Part shown: piece by piece, positions 20 through 13,241 of the stretch
Layout of the letters: each line of letters opens with the position of its first letter
How positions within the stretch are numbered: the first letter of the stretch is position 1
NCBI GenBank assembly: GCA_028717525.1
Contig: JAQUNT010000010.1
Coordinates: 1 to 14,667, forward strand
Direction: 5' to 3'
From: Elusimicrobiota bacterium
Lineage (GTDB): Bacteria; Elusimicrobiota; Elusimicrobia; UBA1565; UBA9628
DNA length: 14,667 nucleotides
The notes under the pieces: model-generated
Databases searched by the model: none
The model's input: the letters and a program-made list of their open reading frames with translations, nothing else
What the model was told of the DNA's origin: nothing
Program-made: the position numbers and the translations under genes

Positions 20-1579
20 ATCTTCAATGACGTCCTGATGGCGCGCGCGGGGTTCGACCCCGACGCCATCGGACCGACCGTCATCCGGGCCGCGGTCTCG
101 CGGCGGATGTTGAGCTGCGGCTGCGGCGACGAGCGCGCCTACCTCCTGAAGCTGCAGTCCGACCGCGGGGAGATGGAGGCTCTGGTCCTGGCCCTCACCG
201 TGCCGGAGACCTGGTTCTTCCGCGAGCGCGAAGCCTTCGTCTGGCTCAAGACCTACCTGGACTCCGAGTGGCTGCCCAAGCGCGGGGGGCAGGCCCTGCG
301 CATCCTGAGCCTGCCCTGCTGCACGGGGGAGGAGCCCTATTCCATCTCCATGACCCTGCTGGACATGGGCTGGCGCGTGGACCGCTTCGTCATCGACGCC
401 CTGGACATCAACCCGGAGTTCCTGGCGAAGGCGCGCCGGATGGAGTACGGGGAGAATTCGTTCCGGGGGGACTGCGCCGAGCTGCGCCGCAAGTACTTCG
501 TCGCCCGCGGCGAGCGCTGCGGCCTGCGCCCGGAGGTGGCGCAGCCGGTCCGCTTCGAGAGGGGGAACCTCCTCGAGGCCGACCCGCTCCTGCACCGGCC
601 CAAGTATCACGTCATCTTCTGCCGCAACCTCCTCATCTACATGCACGCGCAGGCGCGCCAGCGGGCCCTGGAGACTTTGGACCGCTGCCTGGAGCCCGAC
701 GGCCTGCTCTTCACCGGGCACGCGGAGGCCATCTCCTCGCCCAAGTACCGTCTGGTCGAGCATCCCCTGGCCTTCGCCTACCGCCGCGCACCGGCCGTAG
801 GGAAATCCGTCCGGCCGGCGCCGGCGGGACTTCCGATACCGCCGGCGCGTCCCCGCCCGCGCGCCGCCAAGCCCCTGCCGCCGGTGCCGGCGCGCCGCCA
901 GCCTCCGATCCGGGTCCCGGCCCCGGCCGCCGCCCGCTCGTCCGCCGGCTGCTGGGGCCGCATCGGCAGCGACGGCGACCGCTCCTGCCCCGAGCTCAAG
1001 AAGGCCCAGCACTGCCGCCACTGCGACGTCTTCGCCGCGGCGGCCAAGACGGTCTTCGACCAAGCGCCGCCGGCCGGCTACCGGGAGGAATTGGCCCGCG
1101 CCCTGGCCGAGCGGGAGGCTCCCCGCCCGGAGCGCGCCACCTCGATCCTGGTCTTCCGCGTCGGCGCCAGCTGGCTGGCCCTGCCCTCGCGGGGACTGCG
1201 GGGGGTCTACCTTCCCCAGCCGGTGCACGCCATCCCCCACCGCAAGGGCGTGCTCCAGGGCGTGGTCAACGTGGAGGGCGAGTTGCTGCTGCAGTTCGAC
1301 ATGGGGGGGCTGCTGGGCCTGCGCGGGGGCGCGTCCGCCCCGGCGCGGGTCTTCCCGCGCCTGCTGGTCCTGAGGCGCGACGGGCAGGACTGGGCCTTCG
1401 CGGTGGACGAGGTCCATAAGATCATGAGCCTGGACCGCGCGGCCCTGCGTCCGGCCGCGCCGCAGGCGGAGGCGGACGGCCGCGCCTACGCGGAGGGCTC
1501 CTTCGACTGCGACGGCCGGCCGGTCGCCCTGCTCGACGAGGAGCTGCTCGCCGGCGGCCTGCGCAGGTGCCAGAGATGA
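20..1579 (+). CDS. WspC-WspD fusion: CheR methyltransferase plus CheW adaptor (5'-partial)
   Basis: This is a receptor glutamate methyltransferase fused to a coupling domain. Residues are counted from the ATG at 38. The N-terminal CheR helical domain leads to VPETWFFR, and the SAM-binding core contains CTGEEPYS (about 95-102) and FCRNLLIYM. A Pro/Ala-rich linker covers about 250-310. It is followed by a cysteine cluster of the WspD kind (CWGRIG, then CX11C, CX8C, CX2C), and a CheW domain fills about 365-510. In Pseudomonas, WspC (CheR) and WspD (CheW) are separate proteins, so this is a fusion. The frame is open upstream of 38, and the codons at 20-37 read IFNDVL, which fits the family N-terminus. 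The ATG at 38 is therefore probably internal and the true start is lost at the contig edge. The stop overlaps the wspE start as ATGA. The linker hosts repeat copy A. Confidence 0.9.
   Translation: MFNDVLMARAGFDPDAIGPTVIRAAVSRRMLSCGCGDERAYLLKLQSDRGEMEALVLALTVPETWFFREREAFVWLKTYLDSEWLPKRGGQALRILSLPCCTGEEPYSISMTLLDMGWRVDRFVIDALDINPEFLAKARRMEYGENSFRGDCAELRRKYFVARGERCGLRPEVAQPVRFERGNLLEADPLLHRPKYHVIFCRNLLIYMHAQARQRALETLDRCLEPDGLLFTGHAEAISSPKYRLVEHPLAFAYRRAPAVGKSVRPAPAGLPIPPARPRPRAAKPLPPVPARRQPPIRVPAPAAARSSAGCWGRIGSDGDRSCPELKKAQHCRHCDVFAAAAKTVFDQAPPAGYREELARALAEREAPRPERATSILVFRVGASWLALPSRGLRGVYLPQPVHAIPHRKGVLQGVVNVEGELLLQFDMGGLLGLRGGASAPARVFPRLLVLRRDGQDWAFAVDEVHKIMSLDRAALRPAAPQAEADGRAYAEGSFDCDGRPVALLDEELLAGGLRRCQR
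787..848 (+). repeat. 62-bp double-hairpin repeat, copy A
   Basis: This segment is 84% identical (52/62) to the reverse complement of 2029-2090, and the similarity stops sharply at both ends. It folds as two tandem hairpins. Stem 1 pairs CCGGCCG (791-797) with CGGCCGG (812-818) around a 14-nt loop. Stem 2 pairs GCGCCGGCGG (818-827) with CCGCCGGCGC (839-848) around the loop GACTTCCGATA. It lies wholly inside the Pro/Ala linker of the WspCD fusion and adds no stop codon. It resembles REP/BIME-type palindromic elements in form, but I do not recognise a named family. Confidence 0.75.
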
Positions 1580-3879
1580 GCGACGCCTCGGACGGCTCCT
1601 TCATGTTCGACCTCTTCTGCGCCGAGGTGGAGACCCATGCCGCCACGCTGACGGACGGCCTGCTGGGCCTGGAGCGCGGCGGCGGCTCGGCGCAGGCCAT
1701 CGAGCCCCTCATGCGCGCGGCCCATTCCATCAAGGGGGCGGCGCGCATCATCGGCGTCGACGCCGCGGTGAAGGTGGCGCACGCCATGGAGGACTGCTTC
1801 GTGGCGGTGCAGGCCGGCAGGACCGCGCTGGGCCCCGCGGACGTGGACGTCCTGCTCTCGGGGGTGGACTGGCTCAAGAAGGTGCCGGCCGCTGCGGACC
1901 GGGCCACCTGCGCCCTGCCCGAGGCCGACGTCCGGCTGGCGGAGGAGACCACCGCCCGGATCCGTGCTTTGGGGACCGGAGCGCAGTCCGCCCCGGCTCC
2001 GGCGGTCCCCGTGCCTGCGCCGCCGCCTGCGCCTGCGGTATCGGAAGTTCCGCAGGTGCCGGCGGGACGGACTTCCTCACCGCCGGCGCGAGAGGAGGAC
2101 GCCCGCGCTCCGGCGACCGCGCGCCCTGGCGCGCAGGAGCCCCAGCGCATCGTGCGCGTCGACGCCGCCGGCCTGGAGCGCATCATGACTCTCTCCGGCG
2201 AGCTCTTCGTCCAGGCCGGGCGGCTCGAGGCGGTCTCCGCGGCCCTGGGCCGGATGCGGTCCGCCTCCGACCGGATGGGCGGGATGCTGGAGCGGGCTTT
2301 CCAGGCCGCGGAGGCTGGCGACGTGGCCCGCGCCGTGGAACTGGTCCTGCTGGGCAAGCAGCAGAACGAGCGCTGCGGCCGCGGCCTGGCCGCGTCCGAG
2401 GCGGACTTCGAGGCGGTGAGGCGGCGCATGCTGGGGACCTCGGAGCGGCTCTACCACGAGGTGCGCTCCAGCAAGATGCGGCCTTTCGCGGACTGCGCGC
2501 AGGGCTTCCCGCGCATGGTGCGCGACATCTCCAAGTCCGTGGGCAAGGTCGTGCGGCTCCAGCTGGCCGGGCTCAACACCGGCGTGGACCGCGACATCAT
2601 GGAGAAGCTGGAGTCCCCGCTGACGCACCTGCTGCGCAACGCCATCGACCACGGCATCGAGGCTCCGGAGCGCCGCATCAACGCCGGCAAGCCCATGGAG
2701 GGGGTCATCGTCATGGAGGCCTGGCATGCGGCCGGGATGCTGGTCATCTCCATCGCCGACGACGGAGCCGGGGTGGACTTCGCGCGCCTCAAGCGGACCA
2801 TCGTGGAGCGCAAGCTGACCACCGCCGAGCTGGTGGAACGGATGTCCGAGGCCGAGCTCCTGGACTTCATCCTCCTGCCCGGCTTCTCCACGCGCGATGC
2901 CGTCACCGAGCTTTCCGGGCGGGGGGTCGGTCTCGACATCGTGCAGAACATGCTCCAGGAGGTCGGGGGGACCCTGCGCATGGAGAGCAAGCCCGGCCGG
3001 GGGACGTCCTTCACCCTGCGCCTGCCGCTGACCCTCTCCGTCATGAAGGCGGTCATCGCCGAGATCTCCGGGCAGCCCTACGCCTTCCCCCTCAGCCGGA
3101 CCAGCCGCTGCCTGCGCGTCCCCCGGGACCAGGTCGTCTTGGAGGACGGTCTCCCCTGCCTGGAGACCGAGGAGGGCCGGGTCCGGCTCGTGCGCGCCGC
3201 GGAGGTCCTGGAACTGCCGGGCCCGGGCGCGGCGGACGGCGCGGTCTCGGCCGTGGTCATAGGGGACGGCGCCGGCCGCTGCGCGCTGGAGGTGGACCGC
3301 CTGCTGGGAGAGCGCCGCATCGCGGTGCGCCCCCTGGACTCCCGGCTGGGCAAGGTCCAGGACGTGAGCGCGGCCGCGGTCCTGGACGACGGCACGCCGG
3401 TCCTGATCCTGGACGCCGAGGACCTGCTGCGCTCGGCCGAGCTGGCGGGGACGAGGGACCGGACGGGAGACGACGGCGCCGGCCGCGCCGGCCCCCGGGC
3501 CGCGCGGCGCGTGCTGGTGGTCGACGATTCGCCCACGGTCCGGGAGGTGGAGCGGCAGATCCTGGAAAAGGCGGGCTACGAGGTCGACATGTCGATCAAC
3601 GGGATGGACGCCTGGAACGCGATCCAGTCGGCGCATTACGACGCGGTCATCAGCGACATCGACATGCCCCGGATGAACGGCCTGGAGCTGGTCCGGCGCA
3701 TCCGAGGCGACCAGCGCCGGCCGCGGCTGCCGGTCGTCATCGTCTCGTACAAGGACAGCCCCGGCGACCGGGAGCGCGGGCTGGAGGCGGGGGCCGACCT
3801 CTACTTGTCCAAGAGCAGCTTCCAGGACGACACTCTGCTGCGCGCGGTGCAGGAGTTCCTGGGCCAGGCGGCGGCATGA
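1576..3879 (+). CDS. wspE: WspE-type hybrid histidine kinase (HPt-CheA-CheW-REC)
   Basis: This is the central kinase of a Wsp-type chemosensory array. It autophosphorylates on the HPt histidine and passes phosphate to receiver domains. Counting from the ATG at 1576, the HPt domain covers 1-115 with H50 in AAHSIKG. A Pro/Ala linker follows at about 135-190. The ATPase has its N-box at N355 (LLRNAIDHG), DDGAG at 395-399 and GRGVG at 448-452. A CheW-like regulatory domain covers about 485-622. A C-terminal REC domain covers about 645-765, with phospho-acceptor D694 in ISDIDMP and K in LSKSSF. All catalytic motifs are intact. The length of 767 aa suits WspE. I chose the ATG at 1576 because it overlaps the previous stop as ATGA; an in-frame GTG at 1567 is the alternative. 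The linker holds repeat copy B in reverse orientation. Confidence 0.93.
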   Translation: MSDASDGSFMFDLFCAEVETHAATLTDGLLGLERGGGSAQAIEPLMRAAHSIKGAARIIGVDAAVKVAHAMEDCFVAVQAGRTALGPADVDVLLSGVDWLKKVPAAADRATCALPEADVRLAEETTARIRALGTGAQSAPAPAVPVPAPPPAPAVSEVPQVPAGRTSSPPAREEDARAPATARPGAQEPQRIVRVDAAGLERIMTLSGELFVQAGRLEAVSAALGRMRSASDRMGGMLERAFQAAEAGDVARAVELVLLGKQQNERCGRGLAASEADFEAVRRRMLGTSERLYHEVRSSKMRPFADCAQGFPRMVRDISKSVGKVVRLQLAGLNTGVDRDIMEKLESPLTHLLRNAIDHGIEAPERRINAGKPMEGVIVMEAWHAAGMLVISIADDGAGVDFARLKRTIVERKLTTAELVERMSEAELLDFILLPGFSTRDAVTELSGRGVGLDIVQNMLQEVGGTLRMESKPGRGTSFTLRLPLTLSVMKAVIAEISGQPYAFPLSRTSRCLRVPRDQVVLEDGLPCLETEEGRVRLVRAAEVLELPGPGAADGAVSAVVIGDGAGRCALEVDRLLGERRIAVRPLDSRLGKVQDVSAAAVLDDGTPVLILDAEDLLRSAELAGTRDRTGDDGAGRAGPRAARRVLVVDDSPTVREVERQILEKAGYEVDMSINGMDAWNAIQSAHYDAVISDIDMPRMNGLELVRRIRGDQRRPRLPVVIVSYKDSPGDRERGLEAGADLYLSKSSFQDDTLLRAVQEFLGQAAA
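2029..2090 (-). repeat. 62-bp double-hairpin repeat, copy B (inverted)
   Basis: The reverse complement aligns to 787-848 with 10 mismatches and no gaps. Both stems are preserved: CCGGCGG/CCGCCGG for stem 1, and CCTGCGG/CCGCAGG within stem 2. Stem differences between the copies are one C:G to G:C swap in stem 1, one G:C to T:A swap in stem 2, and one wobble-type change. The other differences lie in loops or at the edge. This copy falls in the disordered linker of WspE, between the HPt and the kinase core. Confidence 0.75.
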
Positions 3880-12555: not shown

Positions 12556-12606
12556 GATGGTATGACTGATGGTATTGACAAAGGTAGTACCATCAGGCAT
12601 ACTATG
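12556..12606 (+). promoter_or_regulatory. Four-half-site palindromic operator over the toxin-antitoxin promoter
   Basis: GATGGTA occurs at 12556-12562 and 12568-12574. Its inverse, TACCATC, lies at 12588-12594, and a degenerate inverse, TACTATG, at 12600-12606. Both pairs are spaced 12 bp, and the inner pair lies in a perfect 9-bp inverted repeat (CTGATGGTA/TACCATCAG). The promoter is inside: TTGACA (12575-12580), 17 bp and CATACT (12598-12603). This is the layout expected for autorepression by a ribbon-helix-helix antitoxin and its toxin complex. The predicted transcription start falls on the ATG at 12610. Confidence 0.78.
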
Positions 12607-12609
12607 ATC

Positions 12610-12897
12610 ATGAGACCGGCTAGGGGCGGGCGGAAGGCGTCTCGGGTCGTGAAGAAGGCGATCAGTATTCCGGCGGACCTGCATGACATGGTCTGCGAGG
12701 TCTCGCGCACGCAGCATCAGCCCTACAGCGCGGTGGTGCGGACGGCTTTGGATAGGTATTTCGAGAGGCTGCGGTTGTCCGAGATGGAGCGGGCGTACCG
12801 CAGCTACTACGGGCAGGAGAAGGCCCGCGAGGCGGACGCCAAGTTGGGCGGAGAGGTCTGGCGCGAGAGCCAGTCCGCCTGGCCGGATAGGGAATGA
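12610..12897 (+). CDS. Ribbon-helix-helix antitoxin (MazE-like)
   Basis: This 95-aa protein has a basic N-terminus and then a ribbon-helix-helix fold at about 13-55: strand VVKKAISIPADL, a helix, and a second helix ending ALDRYFERLR. This is the CopG/Arc type used to bind operators as dimers. The charged, poorly structured C-terminus (SYYGQEKAREADAK onward) would wrap and block the toxin. It overlaps the toxin start as ATGA. I start at the ATG at 12610 because the promoter predicts transcription beginning there; an in-frame ATG at 12604 abuts the -10 box. The operator upstream supports autoregulation. The toxin family is clear, so the pair is a MazEF-like module. Confidence 0.85.
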   Translation: MRPARGGRKASRVVKKAISIPADLHDMVCEVSRTQHQPYSAVVRTALDRYFERLRLSEMERAYRSYYGQEKAREADAKLGGEVWRESQSAWPDRE

Positions 12898-13241
12898 CCA
12901 TGGAAGTGTCCAGGGGCGATGTGGTCCTCCTGAACTTCGAGGCGCAGGGCGCGCCGATCCGGAAGACGAGACCTGCGGTGGTGATTCAGAACGACGTGGC
13001 CAATAGGGTGGCGCCGAACACGATTGTGGCCGCGGTGCACCACGACAACCGAAAGGGGCTGCCGGTGCATGTCCCGGTGCGCGCCGGCGTGGGGGGGCTG
13101 ATCAAGGATTCGGTCATCGATCTGGGCTTCATCCAGACCGTGCCGAAGTCGGCATTGGGCCGGAAGCTGGGCCGGATGCCGCTGGACACGCTCGATGCCG
13201 TCGATCAGGCGATCCGGGTCAGCTTGGCGCTGGACTTTTAG
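12894..13241 (+). CDS. MazF/PemK-family endoribonuclease toxin
   Basis: MazF toxins cut single-stranded RNA at short motifs and are held inactive by the antitoxin. The 115-aa protein has the family order: VSRGDVVLLNFE, then IRKTRPAVVIQND with the conserved Arg, IVAAVHHDNRK, and GGLIKDSVIDLGFIQTVPKSALGRKLGRM. The size is normal and nothing appears missing, so it should be functional. It overlaps the antitoxin stop as ATGA, which couples translation; a second ATG at 12900 is an alternative start. A decayed HTH_42 gene begins 1 nt after its stop. The cleavage motif cannot be predicted from sequence. Confidence 0.9.
   Translation: MTMEVSRGDVVLLNFEAQGAPIRKTRPAVVIQNDVANRVAPNTIVAAVHHDNRKGLPVHVPVRAGVGGLIKDSVIDLGFIQTVPKSALGRKLGRMPLDTLDAVDQAIRVSLALDF

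Follow-up and report, generated by a model that had tools for sequence, protein, structure and literature searches.

The inverted pair of repeats found in two adjacent genes of an Elusimicrobiota bacterium very probably results from two insertions of a non-autonomous, dispersed 55-bp mobile element, which comprises two hairpins with conserved loops and lengthens GGCGCC-like sites by 57 bp. The pair belongs to a family whose members show covariation in both hairpins, usually a net addition of 57 bp relative to element-free sites, a dinucleotide repeated at both ends, in-frame placement in host genes and head-to-tail pairs with a period of 57. According to the proposed mechanism, some enzyme would act in trans and move the element in the form of a folded strand, and its insertion would add 57 bp, i.e. 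the 55-bp core plus a repeated dinucleotide that is mostly CG, at GGCGCC-like sites.

The inverted pair and its host genes

The window, i.e. the whole stretch of 14,667 nucleotides analyzed here, is contig C10 of an assembly of 3.02 Mb in 562 contigs that is 79% complete (hereafter G000), and its G+C content is approximately 70%. The preliminary description had claimed an ungapped match at 52 of 62 positions between 787-848 and the reverse complement of 2029-2090. This value was recomputed, and the runner-up 62-mer in the window, direct or inverted, reaches 42/62; the pair is also the longest inverted pair in a repeat listing of the window. The features are given below, with columns that refer to a 63-column alignment and with hairpins defined by covariation.

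38..1579, + strand: gene for a CheR methyltransferase and CheW domain protein, host of copy A (Pfam PF01739 at 57-234, PF01584 at 370-504)
789..790, + strand: left flanking dinucleotide of copy A, CA (columns 3-4), one transition away from the right one
791..845, + strand: copy A, 55-bp core inside the CheR-CheW gene, read as APAVGKSVRPAPAGLPIPPA (E 1.4e-11)
791..818, + strand: hairpin 1 of copy A, 7-bp stem CCGGCCG/CGGCCGG and conserved 14-nt loop
819..820, + strand: central dinucleotide of copy A, CG (columns 33-34), able to pair with either flanking dinucleotide
821..845, + strand: hairpin 2 of copy A, 7-bp stem and conserved 11-nt loop
846..847, + strand: right flanking dinucleotide of copy A, CG (columns 60-61)
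1567..3879, + strand: gene for a CheA-type kinase (Hpt, HATPase, CheW, receiver), host of copy B (Pfam PF01627 at 13-99, PF02518 at 349-489)
2030..2031, - strand: flanking dinucleotide of copy B at the hairpin-2 end, CG
2032..2086, - strand: copy B, inverted 55-bp core in the linker of the CheA gene, read as APAVSEVPQVPAGRTSSPPA (E 1.3e-11)
2032..2056, - strand: hairpin 2 of copy B
2057..2058, - strand: central dinucleotide of copy B, CA
2059..2086, - strand: hairpin 1 of copy B
2087..2088, - strand: flanking dinucleotide of copy B at the hairpin-1 end, CG

In the host proteins, copy A is located between the CheR and CheW domains and copy B between the Hpt and kinase domains (Pfam). The closest relative is G001, whose CheR protein is 81% identical to that of G000 (G003: 53%). 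G001 carries a counterpart of copy A in the orthologous position, copy B is absent from the orthologous CheA linker of the same genome, and the CheR linker of G003 lacks such a peptide. A scan of the window against Rfam at gathering thresholds gave no match. The first 17 bases of the window, at the contig start, look like the tail of an Illumina adapter; from base 18 onward, the sequence is homologous to G001 and contig C141. Elsewhere in the window (12562-13241), two small genes adjoin each other, the second of which encodes a PemK/MazF-like toxin according to Pfam, while the first is possibly an antitoxin and has no Pfam match.

A dispersed family with two hairpins

Family members were collected with BLAST and then with a covariance model built from 44 own-genome copies. 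At least 57 matches at E ≤ 1.1e-5, in both orientations, were detected in G000 (150 of the 7219 first-look candidates were scored). Among them, the starts of head-to-tail neighbors lie exactly 57 apart in five pairs (contigs C39, C67, C208, C24 and C365); in a sixth pair (C136), one copy is truncated and the spacing according to the model ends is 56, and contig C277 carries two copies that are 66 apart. The period-57 pairs would fit a target that is regenerated at the right end of the element.

In a set of 57 genomes searched with stricter filters at E ≤ 0.001, for which counts can include reverse-strand self matches, the genus relatives G001, G006, G003 and G004 yielded 31, 37, 18 and 6 matches, respectively, and G002 and G005 of the same genus yielded none at this threshold. 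The element is therefore found in five of the seven genomes of this genus (g1), G000 included. Outside the genus, 11 matches occur in G012, a member of another genus, and four in G044, a member of another family. The latter are distributed over three contigs (L122, L123 and L121), and stretches of two of them (L122 and L123) share 86% identity over 1.6 kb or 82% over about 0.5 kb with genomes of genus g1. Judged by this resemblance, the element-bearing contigs are probably contaminants introduced during binning of JACRDO, and for this reason the G044 copies were excluded from the dinucleotide and coding counts below. An exact family pattern retrieved 30 stretches from a genome contig collection that may leave out records of the own genome or very near ones, all of them in four Elusimicrobia assemblies; a viral contig collection contained no match to the pattern. 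A literature search on Elusimicrobia and palindromic or transposable elements turned up next to nothing.

The copies in G012 (genus g7) form a sister subfamily, which shares the hairpin-1 arms and the TAAGGAA loop start and has a different hairpin 2. Its center is mostly TG and its flanks mostly CG, the unit comprises 61 + 2 bp, and the copies in two tandem pairs are 63 apart, so that the units of both subfamilies (57 and 63 bp) are multiples of three.

Pair counting on the 44-row own-genome alignment was compared with 500 shuffles and with slid controls. Hairpin 1 spans columns 5-32 and hairpin 2 columns 35-59, with stems of 7 bp (9 bp with the dinucleotide, as each hairpin can be extended by two pairs via the central dinucleotide) and loops of 14 and 11 nt. 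Paired cells account for 91.9% and 93.9% of hairpins 1 and 2, respectively, and the covariation values of 0.197 and 0.211 lie far above the slid controls and above the 0.06-0.07 of the shuffles, none of which (0/500) scored as high. Both sides have changed in 8 of the 16 stem pairs among the 44 copies, again unmatched in 500 shuffles. A single long foldback was rejected as the functional structure: its covariation of 0.084, which exceeds most shuffles (mean 0.075, 13/500 as high), is much weaker than that of the two hairpins. Both stems thus covary across the 44 own-genome copies, as proposed from the two window copies, in which the compensatory changes C:G to G:C (columns 10/27) and G:C to T:A (columns 37/57) were verified. 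The dozens of further copies in the own genome and its genus relatives bear out the reading of the pair as a structured, dispersed element, which had been put forward with the reservation that the genome might contain no others. The proposed BIME-like relationship of the two hairpins in inverted orientation is likewise seen in their related, covarying arms.

Across 101 isolated copies, the conserved core comprises columns 5-59, which correspond to 791-845 and 2032-2086 of the window. The loops are highly conserved, with T at columns 20 and 51 in all 101 copies, and columns 5-13 and 51-59 form terminal inverted repeats with 8/9 matches in the consensus. The ends had been described as sharp; this applies to the core, and columns 1-4 and 60-63 are graded. 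These graded columns are the flanking dinucleotide repeat and, in part, host target. Columns beyond 1-63 are near background in the same 101 copies.

Several units depart from the two-hairpin arrangement. Hairpin 1 or hairpin 2 occurs alone in L223 (1188-1239), L221 (1209-1261), L224, L228 and L226, and L220 contains two hairpin-1 units in tandem; among the matches listed, lone hairpins are rarer than two-hairpin units. Their presence suggests decay products or separately mobile halves. In L033 (2022-2084), a truncated copy has hairpin 2 swapped for another hairpin-like stretch (CCTGGGGCAAAGCCCCAGG).

Empty and filled orthologous sites

The two flanks of 13 of the 34 isolated G000 copies were joined and used as queries against G001, G003 and G006, which resulted in 39 rows; 30 loci were fetched and aligned. 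They represent 29 distinct places, 27 of them element-free and two filled. The net difference to the element-free sites is exactly 57 bp (19 codons) in 21 of the 27 comparisons and 54 in four; the remaining two, with 39 and -12, both belong to copy L023, which lies in a variable Lys-rich tail. Together with the G001 CheA linker that lacks copy B, these comparisons supply empty orthologous sites by which an inserted block can be recognized. Both filled places, those of copies L014 and L024, are in G003. The site of L014 is filled in G000, G003 and G006. The site of L024 is filled in G000 and the more distant G003 and empty in G001 and G006, a pattern that simple gain does not explain and that implies either precise loss or two separate insertions at one site. 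The G003 orthologue of this site (L207) holds a diverged copy and is a candidate for precise excision. In G001, segments are duplicated (L146/L162 and L150/L151), and one pair consists of a member with and a member without the element at the same place, with a gap of 58 beside a run of C.

At the protein level, alignments with three uninterrupted orthologues each revealed exact 19-residue insertions in valyl-tRNA synthetase (ValRS) and in an M18 aminopeptidase. The best solved relative of the ValRS (1gax) is gapped at the same place. This copy is in frame inside the sole valyl-tRNA synthetase found in the 79% complete own genome; one ValRS C-terminal domain was located in this incomplete assembly, on the same contig as the gene that bears the insertion.

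Flanking and central dinucleotides

The best parse of the insertion is a 55-bp core with a repeated flanking dinucleotide at GGCGCC-like sites. Breakpoints were evaluated with 20 of 23 filled/empty pairs, which cover nine copies (three pairs were skipped because of low flank identity). Placing the break at columns 2-4 gives the best prediction of the empty hexamer (identity of 0.767 versus 0.70 at either extreme), in line with a 55-bp core plus a repeated dinucleotide; in 8 of the 20 pairs, this hexamer is CGCGCC or GGCGCC. A scan for target duplications of 2-12 bp with free offsets gave no clear signal; the dinucleotide repeat emerged only upon a direct test of columns 3-4 and 60-61, which were chosen after the copies had been viewed. 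In this test, 79 of 98 isolated copies have the same dinucleotide on both flanks and 19 do not; 20,000 shuffles among copies that share a central dinucleotide gave 65.9 on average and 76 at most. The 98 copies exclude those of G044 and those with another copy within 120 bp and are not all independent, as orthologues and duplicates such as L128/L171 and L150/L151 are included. At site L040, AA flanks the filled copy on either side and TG is present in both relatives, and the dinucleotide may thus sometimes travel with the element.

When a single transition is allowed for, 87 of the 98 copies have a central dinucleotide that is the reverse complement of their left flank (shuffle mean 61, maximum 72). 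Where the left flank is not CG, this rule holds in 24 of 31 copies (shuffle mean 8.6, maximum 15), and for the right flank it holds in 89/98 copies overall and in 24/30 where this flank is not CG. The matches at the left end include 12 that are exact, 56 with G to A at the second place and 17 with C to T at the first. The rule is obeyed by every one of the 19 copies whose two ends are equal and not CG; these stem from several genomes and include at least two pairs that each represent one insertion (L128/L171 and L150/L151).

These associations would be accommodated if the central dinucleotide acted as a guide that pairs with the cleavage and target dinucleotide at the base of each hairpin, a step that, taken alone, we consider somewhat doubtful. 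Target choice by pairing with an imperfect guide is accordingly put forward as a tentative reading of the agreement between center and flank. The main alternative to it could be co-inheritance of ends and center combined with identity-dependent integration, with maintenance of the stem in the donor. Guide-determined cleavage at a dinucleotide has been described, and in one TnpA-REP system, as reported in the available part of the source, a changed guide beside the hairpin shifts the cleavage dinucleotide (PMC8266576).

The same ends could be read as those of a conventional miniature inverted-repeat element (MITE), in which a DDE transposase would cut the double-stranded ends CCGGCSGTA..TACSGCCGG and generate a 2-bp target duplication at palindromic GGCGCC-like sites, with the hairpins as a mere by-product of internal inverted repeats. 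The imperfect 9-bp terminal inverted repeats, the 2-bp repeat and the symmetric GG(CG)CC target agree with this reading. We nevertheless consider it unlikely: recognition of the ends alone requires no hairpins, whereas both internal arms covary with their respective ends, as two distinct hairpins; the central dinucleotide varies along with that of the target; and no gene lies between solo ends among the matches listed in G000, which is fragmented, and G001.

Search for a mobilizing enzyme

As no enzyme with matching ends was found in these searches, the mobility of the two-hairpin element is inferred from its dispersal and from the empty sites. The preliminary description had envisaged an associated REP-type transposase (TnpA/RAYT), i.e. 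a REP/BIME/REPIN family mobilized by a resident REP-associated tyrosine transposase. Such families share the short, dispersed, paired inverted hairpins and the existence of lone hairpins, and Y1 transposase genes are common, being present in 44 of the 57 genomes. The distribution of the two does not coincide, however: G004 holds copies without a Y1 match, and G002 and G005 hold Y1 genes without copies. Among the ten Y1 genes of the genus carriers, seven were examined, and six of these have no hairpin in the fetched stretch; the exception is the gene in G001:C46, where a perfect hairpin 1 stands alone about 1.2 kb away from the reading frame. The full scan, which includes these seven, covered 27 Y1 loci that represent 25 distinct genes; 23 of these lack any hairpin match with up to four substitutions, and one gene of the non-carrier G037 has a match with four substitutions. 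Two Y1 genes are bracketed by long terminal inverted repeats of their own, which are unrelated to the element (L124 1524-2586 and L115 1228-2278; 27 bp and perfect in G001, AT-rich in G000). The association with RAYT was therefore rejected, since six of the seven carrier Y1 genes examined lack hairpins and two Y1 genes have unrelated ends of their own, and with no GTAG or CGTC tag outside the stem, mobilization as a REP-type family is improbable.

Equally improbable, in our estimation, is a route in which a serine recombinase or an IS110-like enzyme would integrate a 57-bp circle at specific sites that must be identical to it in a 2-bp core. This process would likewise yield identical end dinucleotides and tandem pairs with a period of 57, as seen. 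The IS110 DEDD domain (PF01548) is present in the carriers G001 and G003, but also in the non-carrier G002, and was not found in the carriers G000, G004 and G006, so that IS110 is not supported as the mobilizer.

Coding context

Codon statistics, with eight genes of the window as the training set, served to classify 99 isolated copies from five genomes. Six are at contig edges, 29 are read through in frame, 41 have coding sequence on one side and 15 on neither; seven are flanked by coding sequence with a change of frame and one by the same frame with a stop. The read-through share of the classifiable copies is thus 29/93. For each genome, it is below that of random segments: 16/34 versus 62% in G000, 3/20 versus 59% in G001, 8/22 versus 65% in G006, 2/13 versus 29% in G003 and 0/4 versus 35% in G004. 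A preference for coding over intergenic sites was rejected on these grounds, and insertion into coding sequence is considered tolerated rather than preferred. The suggested count of coding versus intergenic copies hence confirmed in-frame copies and fell short of an enrichment.

The same coding frame on both sides was observed for 30 copies, which use two same-strand frames (13 and 4 copies) and two opposite-strand frames (8 and 5). The frame with the consensus stop and one basic-peptide frame are unused; L106, one of the 30, has a stop in another frame. Because none of the 30 uses the consensus-stop frame, translational bypass or splicing of the insert is disfavored. Copies can persist inside genes because 57 bp corresponds to 19 codons and the used frames give Gly/Ala/Pro-rich peptides.

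Pfam searches with 20 of the 29 host proteins placed the insert within a domain in four (M18, the ValRS anticodon domain, isochorismatase and the Mur ligase middle domain) and over a domain edge in two (B3/4 and DegT). In the remaining hosts, including both window genes with their linkers, it lies beyond the listed domain stretches or is unplaced. The notion that Pro/Ala linkers tolerate in-frame insertion in either orientation holds in that both orientations are used in frame, and has to be widened, given that 4/20 inserts lie within a Pfam domain. The idea that there is no mobile element and that runs of Ala/Pro codons made two linkers alike by chance draws on the Pro/Ala-rich surroundings of both copies and has practically no probability left, as it is refuted by the further copies (dozens, in four reading frames and outside genes) and the empty sites, besides the distance between 52/62 and the next best 42.

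Comparison with known palindromic elements

Judged by analogy and from its sequence, the element would work like the REP, REPIN, CGTC-REP, Rickettsia palindromic element (RPE) and MITE kinds of repeats, and its guide-like behavior would come closest to that of TnpA-REP and IS200/IS605. Because the tests for a REP tag and for a REP transposase failed, it is placed as a variant among palindromic miniature elements and not as a REP.

REPINs are described, in the accessible portion of PMC3116915, as short paired inverted hairpins with many copies. The present element shares this arrangement, the copy number, the compensatory changes and the lone hairpins with REP, BIME and REPIN families (PMC3116915, same portion), and consists of two related palindromes in inverted orientation, the unit feature of REPINs and BIMEs. 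It differs in that conservation is concentrated in its loops of 14 and 11 nt, that it carries no GTAG tag, that none of the examined Y1 genes is flanked by it and that its unit, at 57 bp, is a multiple of the codon length. The sole GTAG-like stretch lies not at the end but at columns 11-14, where stem 1 ends on its inner side; 16/101 copies have G at column 14. CGTC-tagged REPs have stems of 8-9 bp, loops of 4-5 nt and an unpaired end tag, as far as the consulted part of PMC3733652 describes them. The element resembles them as a set of paired palindromes that lack a dedicated transposase and are in part located inside genes (PMC3733652, same part), and differs from them by its 7-bp stems, its longer loops and the occurrence of CGTC only inside loop 1.

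RPEs are, in the excerpted text of PMC10969869, palindromic selfish DNA of about 150 bp that has entered unrelated protein genes without disrupting their frame. The element shares this in-frame placement (29/93 copies, with two exact 19-residue insertions); it is smaller (55 bp plus a dinucleotide) and occurs in a different phylum, as judged from that description. The small size, the lack of an own gene, the imperfect terminal inverted repeats and the short direct repeat are MITE-like features. Unlike MITEs, the element has internal arms and a central dinucleotide that covary, and no parent transposon was found among the matches listed in G000 and G001.

IS200/IS605 elements have hairpin ends, and their cleavage letters are set by pairing with tetranucleotide guides 5' of the palindromes, according to the available part of PMC8266576. 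Hairpins at the ends and an apparent guide pairing, here a statistical association only, connect the element to them (PMC8266576, same part). In contrast to IS200/IS605, it has one dinucleotide shared by the stem bases, and no TnpA with such ends was found among the Y1 genes scanned; in contrast to TnpA-REP, its putative guide would be situated between the hairpins and serve both ends.

Implications

The family represents a natural case of selfish DNA that fits dense coding genomes, with codon-multiple insertions in housekeeping enzymes and empty orthologues at hand. Target choice by REPs that lack a dedicated transposase is a question left open in the consulted part of PMC3733652. For very short palindromic repeats, the three-way covariation of dinucleotides provides a testable rule of target choice. 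On a tentative and, at present, not the more probable view, miniature elements of this kind may hold their unit length at a multiple of three and use the central dinucleotide to pick both the donor ends and the target by pairing, with one wobble tolerated. If this is true, each element would carry a self-contained two-letter address and would re-create its own target upon insertion.
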